Assembly: GCA_024349765.1 (NCBI GenBank)
Contig: AP026073.1
Coordinates: 1,488,001 to 1,552,000, forward strand
DNA: 64,000 nt
Origin: Streptomyces nigrescens
Lineage (GTDB): Bacteria > Actinomycetota > Actinomycetes > Streptomycetales > Streptomycetaceae
Reading direction: 5' to 3'
A model generated the notes under the pieces. That model saw nothing but the letters and a program-made list of their open reading frames with translations, made no database searches and was not told the origin of the DNA. This document shows, piece after piece, positions 47,219 through 50,064 of the stretch; positions within the stretch are counted from its first letter, which is position 1; each line of letters begins with the position of its first letter. The position numbers were made by a program, and so were the translations under genes.

Positions 47219-48283
47219 ATGAACGTTGTGACCCCGATTGGCGGCGACAGCGTGGCGGCCCACACCTGGCCGGGCATCCTGAACGCCCTGCTCGACGGCC
47301 GCGACCTCGCCGCCGACGACACCGCCTGGGCGATGGACCGGATCATGCGGGGCGAGGCCAGCGACGCCCAGATCGCCGGGTTCGCGGTGGCCCTGCGCGC
47401 CAAGGGCGAGACCGTCGCGGAGATCTCCGGCCTGGTCCGGACGATGTACGCGCACGCCCGGCTGATCGAGGTCCCGGGCCCCAGCGTCGACATCGTCGGC
47501 ACCGGCGGTGACGGCGCCAAGACCGTCAACATCTCCACGATGTCCTCGATCGTCGTGGCCGGCACCGGCGCCAGGGTCGTCAAGCACGGCAACCGCGCCG
47601 CGTCCTCCGCCAGCGGCGCCTCCGACGTCCTGGAGAAGCTCGGTGTCAACCTCGACCTCACCCCGCAGCGGGTCACCGAGGTGGCCCAGGAGGCCGGCAT
47701 CACCTTCTGCTTCGCGGTGAAGTTCCACCCCTCCCTCCGGCACGTCGCCAACGCCCGCGGCCAGCTCGGCATCCGCACCACGTTCAACGTGCTCGGCCCG
47801 CTGACCAACCCCGCCCGGGTGAAGGCCCAGGCGACCGGCGTCGCGGACGCCCGCATGGCGCCCATCCTGGCCGGCGTGCTCGCCGAGCGGGGTTCCTCCG
47901 CGCTGGTCTTCCGCGGCGACGACGGCCTCGACGAGCTGACCACGACGGCCACCTCCCGGGTCTGGATCGTGCGGGACGGCACGGTCCGCGAGGAGTCCTT
48001 CGACCCCCGCGACGTCGGCATCCCCCTCGTCCCCGTCGAGGCGCTGCGCGGCGCGGACGCCTCGTACAACGCGGACGTCGCCCGCCGGCTGCTGGACGGT
48101 GAGACCGGCCCGGTCCGCGACGCGGTGCTGCTGAACTCCGCGGCCGCGCTGGTCGCGCTGGAGCCGTCGGACGCCCCGCTGACCGACCGCATCCGCCTCG
48201 GCATCGAGCAGGCCGCCGCGTCGATCGACTCGGGCGCGGCAAAGCGGGCGCTGGAGCGCTGGGTGGCCGCCAGCAACGCCTGA
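47219..48283 (+). CDS. trpD: Anthranilate phosphoribosyltransferase
   Basis: TrpD attaches phosphoribose to anthranilate in tryptophan synthesis. The 354 residues show the family motifs [50 protein letters not shown] and [18 protein letters not shown]. The ATG at 47219 follows GGAGCGTGGACC. No other trp genes are near; Streptomyces often carry this copy singly beside the qcr genes. Two short direct repeats (GTGACGCAGGG, 48291 region) and a hairpin follow. Confidence 0.95.
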
Positions 48284-48309
48284 GCGGCCGGTGACGCAGG
48301 GTGTGACGC

Positions 48310-48340
48310 AGGGCTCAGTCCGTCATATGGACTGAGCCCT
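48310..48340 (+). terminator. Terminator after trpD
   Basis: Twelve-base arms (48310-48321 and 48329-48340) with a 7-nt loop, followed by TTGC. Confidence 0.8.
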
Positions 48341-48367
48341 TGCGGGTAAATGGTCTTGTGGCATGAT
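48340..48367 (+). promoter_or_regulatory. Promoter candidate of the SAM-IV-controlled gene
   Basis: TTGCGG (48340-48345), 16-base spacer, CATGAT (48362-48367). The predicted start, about 48374, coincides with the 5' end of the riboswitch fold. Confidence 0.55.
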
Positions 48368-48374
48368 GCTGCGC

Positions 48375-48492
48375 AGGTCACGAGTGACAGCGACACAGGC
48401 CCCGGCCCGCTGTCCGGCAACCCTCCTTCCGTGGCGGGGTGCCCCGGGTGATGACCAGGCCGCAGTCAGCGAGGTCTGCGGCAAGCGCGGAT
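48375..48492 (+). promoter_or_regulatory. SAM-IV riboswitch
   Basis: The stretch matches the actinobacterial SAM-IV aptamer as I know it: a GGTCAcGAGTG opening, CAGCG…GCTGTCCGGCAACCCTCC, the core GGGGTGCCCCGGGTGA, TGACC closing the first helix, and the 3' pseudoknot element GGCAAGCGCGG. It senses S-adenosylmethionine and usually switches off sulfur-assimilation or methionine genes. Directly downstream, GGATCCCT (48489-48496) can pair with AGGGATCC (48501-48508). Alternatively, CCCTCG (48493-48498) can pair with CGAGGG (48516-48521), which is part of a Shine-Dalgarno. These mutually exclusive stems look like a translational expression platform. Confidence 0.88.
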
Positions 48493-48530
48493 CCCTCGCC
48501 AGGGATCCTGGTCCCCGAGGGAGAACTTCC

Positions 48531-48551
48531 GTGAATCAGCGAATGCGATAG
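48531..48551 (+). CDS. Putative six-residue leader ORF (VNQRMR)
   Basis: A GAGGGAG ribosome site (48517-48523) precedes GTG at 48531 by seven bases, followed by AAT CAG CGA ATG CGA TAG. The SD is one of the strands of the riboswitch switch helix, so SAM would control translation of this tiny ORF. It lies 133 bases before the aminotransferase ATG. Whether a peptide is made or the ORF only times ribosomes is unknown; it could also be chance. Confidence 0.4.
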   Translation: MNQRMR

Positions 48552-48684
48552 GGCTCAACGGCCCCTTTCCCGCACCCTTTTTCCTTTCACGCTGCGTATC
48601 GCGCCGCGCGCTCCGGCATACCCGGACAGCGCCGCCGCCACCCCCTTCCGCAGCGAATTCGCTTACGCCTTACGGGAGTTCGCC

Positions 48685-50064
48685 ATGTCTGTTTCCGCCG
48701 TTGCCGCCGACCGTTCCGTCTGTGCCCCGCTGCCCGTCCTCGGCCGGGACGTCCTGGTCCCGCTCGTGACCGGCGGCGAGGTCGACTACGCCGCGCTGGA
48801 CTACGCCGCCAGCGCCCCGGCACTCCAGCGGGTCTGGGACGACGTGGCCGCCTACGCCCCGTACTACGGCAGCGTGCACCGCGGCGCCGGATACCTCTCG
48901 CAGCTCTCCACCGACCTCTTCGAGAACAGCCGCCGCACGACCGCGGAATTCCTCGGCTGCCGCGCCGACGACCAGGTCGTCTTCACCCGCTCCACCACCG
49001 ACTCGCTCAACCTGCTCGCCGCCGTACTCCCGCAGGACACCCGGGTGTTCGTGTTCGAGACCGAGCACCACGCGTCGCTGCTGCCGTGGGAACAGCGCGC
49101 CGACCTGACGGTCACCTACCTCAACGCCCCGCGCACCCCGGAGCAGGCCGTCGCGACCCTGGAGCACGCGCTCGCCGACCGCGAGCCCTACGGCCCGGCC
49201 CTGGTCTGCGTCACCGGTGCCTCCAACGTCACCGGCGAGCTCTGGCCGGTCCGCGAACTGGCCGCCGCGGCGCACGCGCACGGCGCCCGGATCGTCCTCG
49301 ACGCGGCCCAGCTCGCCCCGCACCACCCGGTCGACCTCGCCGAACTGGACGTCGACTGGGTCGCCTTCTCCGGCCACAAGCTGTACGCGCCGTTCGGCGC
49401 GGGTGTCCTGGCCGGCCGCGCGGACTGGCTGCAGGACGCCGACCCGTACCTGGCGGGCGGCGGCGCCAGCCGCAAGGTCTCGCGCCGCGCGGACGGCGGC
49501 GTCGACGTCGAATGGCACACCACGGCCGCCCGCCACGAGGCCGGCTCGCCCAACGTCATCGGCGCCTACGCCATCGCCTCCGCCTGCAAGGCGCTCACCG
49601 AGGCGGGCTTCGACACGCTCGTCGCCCGCGAGCAGGAGCTGATCGCGCGGGTCCGCGCGGGGCTGGCCGAGGTCCCCGAGGTGCGCGTCCTCTCCCTCTT
49701 CGGCGACGACGCCCCGCGCGTCGGCGTGCTCTCCTTCGTGGTGGACGGCTGGAACAGCTCGCACTTCGCCGCCGCGCTCTCCGCCGAGTACGGCATCGGC
49801 GTCCGCGACGGCCTGTTCTGCGCGCACCCGCTCGTCCGCACCCTGCTGGGCACCGACCCGCAGGACCCCGGCGAGTGCGGCGCCCCCGACGCGGCCCCCG
49901 GCGAGCGCTCCCTCAACGCCATCCGCGTCTCCTTCGGCGCCGGCACGCCCGACGAGCATGTCGACCGCTTCCTGCGAGCGGTCAAGGAACTCGTCTCCGA
50001 GGGGGCGCGCTGGAACTACCGCACGGAGGACGGTCGTTGCGTACCGGTGGCTGACGCTGTTTGA
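48685..50064 (+). CDS. Class V aminotransferase / cysteine-desulfurase-like PLP enzyme under SAM-IV control
   Basis: The 459-residue fold-type-I PLP enzyme has the class V pattern: DYAASAPALQRVWDDVAAYAPYYGSVHRGAG, FTRSTTDSLNLLAAVLP, ETEHHASLLPWEQ, VTGASNVTGELWPV, DAAQLAPHHPVDL and the PLP lysine K232 in FSGHKLYAPFGAGVL. The active-site Cys loop of IscS is absent or shifted; FCAHPLVRTLLG is present instead. Such enzymes act as cysteine/selenocysteine lyases or isopenicillin-epimerase-like proteins. Riboswitch control by SAM points to sulfur metabolism, but the substrate is not shown. ATG has GGGAG eight bases upstream. The leader is 310 bases long. Confidence 0.85.
   Translation: MSVSAVAADRSVCAPLPVLGRDVLVPLVTGGEVDYAALDYAASAPALQRVWDDVAAYAPYYGSVHRGAGYLSQLSTDLFENSRRTTAEFLGCRADDQVVFTRSTTDSLNLLAAVLPQDTRVFVFETEHHASLLPWEQRADLTVTYLNAPRTPEQAVATLEHALADREPYGPALVCVTGASNVTGELWPVRELAAAAHAHGARIVLDAAQLAPHHPVDLAELDVDWVAFSGHKLYAPFGAGVLAGRADWLQDADPYLAGGGASRKVSRRADGGVDVEWHTTAARHEAGSPNVIGAYAIASACKALTEAGFDTLVAREQELIARVRAGLAEVPEVRVLSLFGDDAPRVGVLSFVVDGWNSSHFAAALSAEYGIGVRDGLFCAHPLVRTLLGTDPQDPGECGAPDAAPGERSLNAIRVSFGAGTPDEHVDRFLRAVKELVSEGARWNYRTEDGRCVPVADAV

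Follow-up and report, generated by a model that had tools for sequence, protein, structure and literature searches.

A SAM-IV riboswitch in Streptomyces appears to act on a conserved six-codon open reading frame whose stop codon opens a hairpin

The immediate target of the SAM-IV riboswitch in the Streptomyces nigrescens leader described here appears to be a hexapeptide open reading frame (uORF), conserved across this genus of antibiotic producers. The window, the whole stretch of 64,000 nucleotides that was analysed, carries on its forward strand the aptamer, the uORF with its own Shine-Dalgarno sequence (SD), a short hairpin that begins in the uORF stop codon, a C/U-rich tract and the gene of a class V PLP enzyme. 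The aptamer would control ribosome entry at the six-codon uORF, not at the enzyme gene, and translation of the uORF under the control of SAM would prevent premature termination of transcription. We regard this chain of events, taken as a whole, as moderately likely.

The match to the SAM-IV model RF00634 at 48376–48493 (plus strand) is full length, covering model positions 1–116, and scores 112.6 bits in cmscan (E 5.4e-20) against a gathering score of 38, which bears out the original prediction of a SAM-IV aptamer. It is the single Rfam element at gathering thresholds in the window and the only SAM-IV match in the 9.3 Mb genome. The aptamer takes in the 3′ tail AAGCGCGG, which we take to have the pseudoknot role. 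Judging from the conservation of the aptamer, it presumably binds SAM. Between trpD and the SAM-IV leader there is an inverted repeat, GGGCTCAGTCC-GTCATAT-GGACTGAGCCC at 48311–48339, which is probably the trpD terminator.

The regulated gene (48685–50064, plus strand) encodes a cysteine-desulfurase-like class V PLP enzyme, an Aminotran_5 protein (Pfam PF00266, 257.8 bits) nearest to the SufS-type cysteine desulfurases. It matches 19 NCBIfam models, each under the curated cut-off (TIGR01979, 258.4 bits vs 475.1). The enzyme ATG at 48685 was read in the sequence and lies 133 bases past the stop of the six-codon ORF, the distance given originally. The gene has its own SD core at 48675–48678 (plus strand), within the sequence CGGGAGTTC right before the ATG. 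Counting the 12 commonest sequences listed, CGGGAGTTC stands directly 5′ of the enzyme ATG in at least 50 of 62 orthologues.

The uORF at 48531–48551 (plus strand) reads GTG AAT CAG CGA ATG CGA TAG and would encode MNQRMR. Its SD core, GGAG at 48520–48523 (plus strand), lies seven bases before the GTG at 48531, and reading the sequence confirmed this SD and ORF as they were predicted. For comparison, 121 Streptomyces genomes were scanned with the SAM-IV model; 118 were positive, and the best locus of each was taken. Another 36 Streptomyces genomes from an order-level sample were added, giving 154 leaders. The ORF search pattern consisted of a start, two free codons, CGA ATG, one free codon and a stop, with TAA and TGA allowed. 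The uORF is present in frame in 117 of 118 and 152 of 154 best SAM-IV leaders of Streptomyces, mostly as M-x-x-R-M-R-stop. The original prediction had named as its refutation leaders that keep the aptamer and lose the SD and ORF; the ORF is kept in 152 of the 154.

The 152 uORFs start with GTG (143), ATG (8) or TTG (1). Codon 2 is variable (S, N, I, M, V, R, L or T), as is codon 3 (K, Q, N, T, M, L or E), and codon 6 is CGN in 144 of 152 with all four wobble bases represented, the rest being C (3), S (2), L (2) and P (1). The constancy of codons 4 and 5 is conditional, because the search demanded CGAATG, which 2 of 154 leaders failed. All 152 of these SAM-IV-selected leaders end the uORF with TAG, though TAA and TGA were permitted. 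GGAG ends 5–9 nt ahead of the start in all 152 ORF-bearing leaders, and 6–8 nt ahead in 147. The exact pattern GTGNNNMAGCGAATGCGNTAG occurs once apiece in 99 of 121 Streptomyces genomes, against 0 for the reversed pattern. Judged by these sequence counts, the conserved mini-ORF is commoner than expected by chance. When loci were selected by the enzyme instead, 79 of the 80 best of the matches listed, all from Streptomyces, had the uORF. One of these loci (L286) stops with TAA, and in three others (L290, L328 and L330) the aptamer was unflagged by a strict motif, yet is readable in the sequence. The uORF is very probably translated.

That this is an ordinary SAM-IV leader with a short ORF merely along for the ride would agree with Table 3 of PMC8079986, where a SAM-IV element upstream of a "cysteine desulfurase" of S. 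lividans is already annotated. It is scarcely credible in view of a uORF in 152/154 and 79/80 loci, the pattern in 99/121 genomes and the hairpin described below in 142/152 leaders. Another reading takes the conserved core as an RNA element, such as a protein or sRNA site or a decay signal, and not as an ORF. The nucleotides of CGAATG and TAG are indeed conserved, down to the normally free wobble base of codon 4 (CGAATG was a requirement of the search, which 2/154 leaders failed). Yet the start codons interchange, the SD spacing is held at 5–9 nt, the wobble base of codon 6 is free, ORFs of different length in other families preserve the frame, and leaders that have lost the ORF use its GTG to start the enzyme. 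We consider an RNA element very unlikely.

The arginine codons of the uORF differ from those of the gene that it precedes. CGA makes up 32 of 2,570 Arg codons in the enzyme orthologues vs 88 of 144 Arg codons at uORF codon 6; it is also codon 4 in all 152, where the search required CGAATG. The enrichment may reflect selection for ribosomes that move slowly across the arm of the hairpin.

The exceptions in Streptomyces are few. In one of the two leaders that failed the search (L250) the six-codon ORF is in place but diverged, reading MSQHMP-stop. In the other (L246), and also in S. odonnellii (L327), the intervening stretch is missing, and the SD and GTG AGC of the uORF begin the enzyme. The two appear to be either a single deletion in sister species or the same species sampled twice; the SAM-IV-selected and enzyme-selected genome sets may share species, and L246 may be S. 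odonnellii itself. In the uORF-less leader of S. odonnellii the SD lies inside a predicted stem of 10 bp. Four Streptomyces genomes have no SAM-IV match (G043, G050, G079 and G153), two of them only 78–82% complete. Their enzyme relatives are 30–36% identical, the best in each genome 33–36%. With no close relative of the enzyme in these four, leader and enzyme seem to have been lost together, and loss of the leader without loss of the enzyme was rejected.

Two stems between aptamer and uORF may expose or hide the SD. The antisequestor hairpin H1 (48489–48508, plus strand) pairs GGATCCCT at 48489–48496 with AGGGATCC at 48501–48508, and its first two G overlap the aptamer tail strand. The putative sequestor H2 (48493–48521, plus strand) pairs CCCTCG at 48493–48498 with CGAGGG at 48516–48521, overlapping part of the SD. 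An H1 stem of the GG[AG][CT]CCC type with at least 6 bp is found in 140 of 152 leaders; among its most frequent strand pairs are GGACCCCT:AGGGGTCC (45), GGATCCCT:AGGGATCC (22) and GGATCCCT:AGGGGTCC (15), and it displays a compensatory change from U-A to C-G via a U-G intermediate. Eleven leaders without any H1-type stem are compact, with 23–27 nt from tail to start codon.

H2 pairs in the window sequence, and it also forms when the isolated platform is folded computationally. Beyond its invariant CCC/GGG core no covariation was found in the 140 leaders: the three positions after CCC are paired in 139, 102 and 105 of 140, whereas shuffling gives means of 139, 95.7 and 105.5 (maxima 139, 106 and 108). 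H2 as a covarying helix is unsupported. Both of the mutually exclusive stems of the original prediction are found in place; the check for compensatory change that it had proposed showed one in the antisequestor GGATCCCT:AGGGATCC and none outside the invariant core of the sequestor CCCTCG:CGAGGG.

With the tail blocked, predicted mean openness of the SD over the 140 leaders is 0.29; it is 0.35 when H1 is formed and 0.30 in the absence of any constraint. The shift has the predicted sign in 80 of 140 leaders and exceeds 0.2 in 33; another 10 leaders shift by more than 0.2 in the opposite direction. Folded in isolation, the platform of the window adopts H2 in place of H1, even when the tail is left unblocked. 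Predicted folding weakly supports the H1/H2 switch. Occlusion of the SD is plausible, and the exact stems may differ between lineages. In the predicted platform fold the tail strand 48486–48491 also pairs with the uORF start region 48528–48533; inspection by eye suggests that this pairing is incidental, because relatives have other bases there. The presence of a conserved mini-ORF with its own SD behind the aptamer points to that SD as the place where SAM probably acts.

Just after the uORF, GGGC at 48551–48554 can pair with GCCC at 48561–48564 (hairpin 48551–48564, plus strand). The first paired G is the last base of the uORF TAG, and this hairpin had been missed at first. When the stop-codon region was aligned with MAFFT and folded with RNAalifold, the alignment was heavily gapped and the consensus uninformative; a test anchored on the stop codon, which looked for a perfect 4-nt complement and used 200 shuffles, was applied instead. 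With a loop of at most 8 nt the hairpin occurs in 142 of 152 leaders vs a shuffle mean of 20 (sd 3.9, maximum 38). With a loop of up to 40 nt, the count is 151 of 152 vs 91 in shuffles. Ten leaders have an altered 5′ strand together with the matching complement (GGGG in 4, GGCG in 3, and GGAG, GAGC and GCCG), nine of them with a loop of at most 8 nt; one further leader, with the 5′ strand GGAC, has no perfect partner. The matched strand changes in ten leaders support the hairpin. That the G of the stop codon opens it would explain the invariant TAG.

The hairpin is followed by a C/U-rich, G-poor tract at 48565–48604 (plus strand), likewise overlooked before, which is a candidate termination or Rho zone. 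Its mean composition over 40 nt in 141 leaders is C 0.48, T 0.26, G 0.18 and A 0.09, compared with C 0.37 and G 0.34 in the window, which would suit a Rho loading site. A terminator scan of 48250–48750 found 0 intrinsic-terminator-like sites, and only 3 of 141 leaders have five T within 8 nt after the hairpin stem. An intrinsic terminator with a U run was thus rejected, and the lack of a U run 3′ of the hairpin best fits Rho-dependent or non-canonical termination. In S. clavuligerus the available text of PMC8269248 describes, from Term-seq, a premature transcription unit with a predicted SAM-IV element at the class V enzyme gene CRV15_21540, whose ratio of reads between premature unit and coding region is among the most extreme drops. 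Comparable studies on S. avermitilis, S. griseus and S. lividans were searched by term in their main texts and do not name SAM-IV, so that the termination evidence comes from one species.

The distance from uORF stop to enzyme start was compared in 62 of the 80 enzyme-selected loci, 18 being omitted because the match did not start with ATG or GTG, or because the search gave no ORF. It ranges from 57 to 291 nt, with frames distributed 22/21/19. Since the distances spread over all three frames, readthrough or an in-frame fusion of uORF and enzyme was rejected. The 57–291 nt gap, the lack of frame preference and the enzyme's own SD make tight reinitiation unlikely. These same facts bear on the possibility that the SAM-gated uORF works by translational coupling, ribosomes at the TAG continuing to the enzyme start or unmasking the enzyme SD. 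The ppe2 system, in which a riboswitch-controlled uORF is needed for translation of the next gene (in the available text of PMC11260477), provides a precedent. In one fetched SAM-IV locus (L146), an ORF MRRLRSRDRRVSP located 38–80 nt past the tail of the aptamer shares an ATGA overlap with the start of the enzyme, possibly a translationally coupled version of the relay. Against coupling in Streptomyces stand the separate SD of the enzyme, the long gap without frame preference, and the fact that the conserved unit stops at the hairpin and tract. We think it improbable.

SAM-IV leaders outside Streptomyces reveal a simpler arrangement. In a class-level sample SAM-IV was found in 188 of 296 genomes, and 107 loci were sorted: 85 non-Streptomyces loci, 3 from genus g5 of the same order and 19 secondary Streptomyces copies. 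Seven were left out, their orientation being undeterminable (L100, L107, L108, L110, L162, L183 and L197). BLAST divided the remaining 100 into 45 loci with the class V enzyme, 32 metY-like loci and 23 with neither; L124, of which just a C-terminal piece of the ORF was called, was then omitted from the class V loci, and L212 (36% identical) from the metY-like ones. All 45 class V loci so sorted are from outside Streptomyces, with the enzyme 43–61% identical. In all 44 loci whose start is readable, the enzyme begins 28–116 nt past the aptamer tail, and CGAATG between tail and enzyme occurs in 0 of these 44. The other genera thus have the same aptamer and enzyme in a direct layout, whereas Streptomyces interposes the uORF. 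The three loci of genus g5 (L116, L124 and L132) have the aptamer and no CGA-ATG uORF in leaders of about 110 nt. The direct layout elsewhere, together with the reuse of the GTG in L246 and L327, indicates that initiation at the uORF and expression of the enzyme have the same sign.

The metY-like leaders are different. By reading, a short uORF lies in between in at least 14 of the 31, and seven of the 31 have an in-frame CGA ATG, most with Cys codons (L138, L140, L145, L149, L179, L190 and L222). The peptides are MCCCRMN, MCCCCRMTRR, MTCRMPF, MTCRMRR, MSCQRMPRR, MCIRRMCCR and MNHHRMRR. In L138 and L140 a CCGC/GCGG hairpin holds the uORF stop codon in its loop. A class-wide pattern scan with a short gap range was positive in 7 of 296 genomes, four apparently by chance, vs 3 for the reversed control. 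With longer gaps 39 of 296 were positive (reversed, 3), comprising by reading 24 Streptomyces, 10 with SAM-IV-like tails elsewhere and 5 apparent chance matches. The SAM-IV position was cross-checked for the 10 non-Streptomyces tails except those of G248, G390 and G427. The longer-gap scan adds four genomes with a CGA-ATG core uORF, one of which is covered by the position cross-check.

SAM-IV also stands before longer Cys-containing leader peptides in L093–L097, L099, L101–L105, L208, L211 and L221, which read ...VDLLRVNSALC... and ...RRHIDLQRxxSCLC.... In some Streptomyces copies this pair is followed by permease- or lipoprotein-like genes. The combination of SAM-IV with a longer Cys leader peptide is a second, different arrangement.

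The CGA-ATG core in 152/154 Streptomyces leaders, and in frame in 7/31 metY-like leaders of other families, might suggest a two-signal attenuator. SAM would gate ribosome entry, methionyl-tRNA (in the relatives also cysteinyl-tRNA) would be read at CGA ATG, or the R-M-R peptide would arrest the ribosome, and stalling would keep the hairpin open. One Met codon is a weak sensor, and the Streptomyces ORF has no Cys save at codon 6 in 3/152, which leaves this reading fairly unlikely. Polycysteine attenuators have reportedly been described by Canestrari (2020). The ORF of the window contains no Cys that would place it among them, and codon 6 is Cys in just 3 of 152 leaders.

We return to the SAM-gated relay that protects against premature termination. 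SAM riboswitches usually mediate repression by SAM, and because of this usual role we infer that SAM represses both the uORF and the enzyme. At high SAM the aptamer would be folded and the uORF SD occluded, in long leaders by a local sequestor and in compact leaders through nearness to the folded tail. With the uORF untranslated, the stop-codon hairpin would form, and RNA polymerase would be released in or just after the C/U-rich tract, at a Rho-dependent or weak non-canonical terminator. At low SAM a ribosome would translate the six codons, slowing at the rare CGA codons and the stop. Placed at the end of the uORF, it would cover the 5′ arm of the hairpin, since a ribosome masks about 26 nt of RNA (available text of PMC13236596), and transcription would run on into the enzyme gene with its separate SD. 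Several points argue against this chain. The hairpin is short, 4–5 bp, and has no U run. The six-codon ORF would shield little RNA past the hairpin. H2 lacks covariation, and the sign of the change in SD openness is right in just 80 of 140 leaders.

Related systems are known. For M. tuberculosis, the available text of PMC11260477 describes a B12 riboswitch with the uPPE2 uORF, which must be translated for the downstream gene to be expressed. Control of a uORF by a riboswitch would be common to that system and to the present one, where translation of the uORF is probable from sequence comparison. However, B12/uPPE2 has another ligand and aptamer and works by termination-reinitiation at ATGA, whereas the SAM-IV uORF has a gap of 57–291 nt and a stop-codon hairpin. 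The SAM-II leader of Sinorhizobium metA resembles it in that SAM sequesters an SD acting on a gene at a distance; as far as the accessible text of PMC9373788 describes it, that leader has a terminator between the first and second AUG, the second AUG is in frame, the aptamer is of another class, and there is no separate stop-terminated mini-ORF. The cysteine leader peptides of Actinobacteria, in the available text of PMC1262725, are likewise short uORFs near sulfur genes. The metY-like SAM-IV leaders share Cys-rich uORFs with them, here with the CGA-ATG core; unlike them, the Streptomyces uORF follows a riboswitch, is preceded by an SD and lacks a run of Cys codons. The mgtE M-box of M. abscessus also combines a riboswitch and a uORF, there ribosome-protected, in an actinobacterium, but it responds to magnesium and its uORF is a different, vcgB-like one (available text of PMC4974804). 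In S. lividans a SAM-IV element is placed before SLIV_26975, and the available text of PMC8079986 notes no leader peptide alongside. A SAM-IV-gated uORF was not mentioned in the literature searched, the founding SAM-IV papers lying outside that search, and within the same bounds this agrees with the original prediction that a two-stage leader is undescribed for SAM-IV. Riboswitch-controlled uORFs are thus already known, and the SAM-IV version appears new.

The leader would provide a genetically simple system for the coupling of riboswitch, ribosome and transcription termination in a GC-rich bacterium, and it raises the question of why a stop codon should supply the first base pair of a regulatory hairpin. 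The comparison suggests that SAM-IV leaders have switched between the direct and the relay mode of regulation, and the natural deletion offers a ready-made control. A broader and more doubtful idea is that of an old actinobacterial two-input module, in which a SAM riboswitch lets ribosomes onto a very short ORF. The CGA-ATG core of that ORF, whether or not Cys codons accompany it, would either sense the supply of amino acids or arrest the ribosome at a stop codon that forms part of a termination hairpin. If true, a single leader would integrate SAM level with the charging of sulfur amino acids; Streptomyces would have pared the module down to a six-codon relay, and other genera would control the gene directly.
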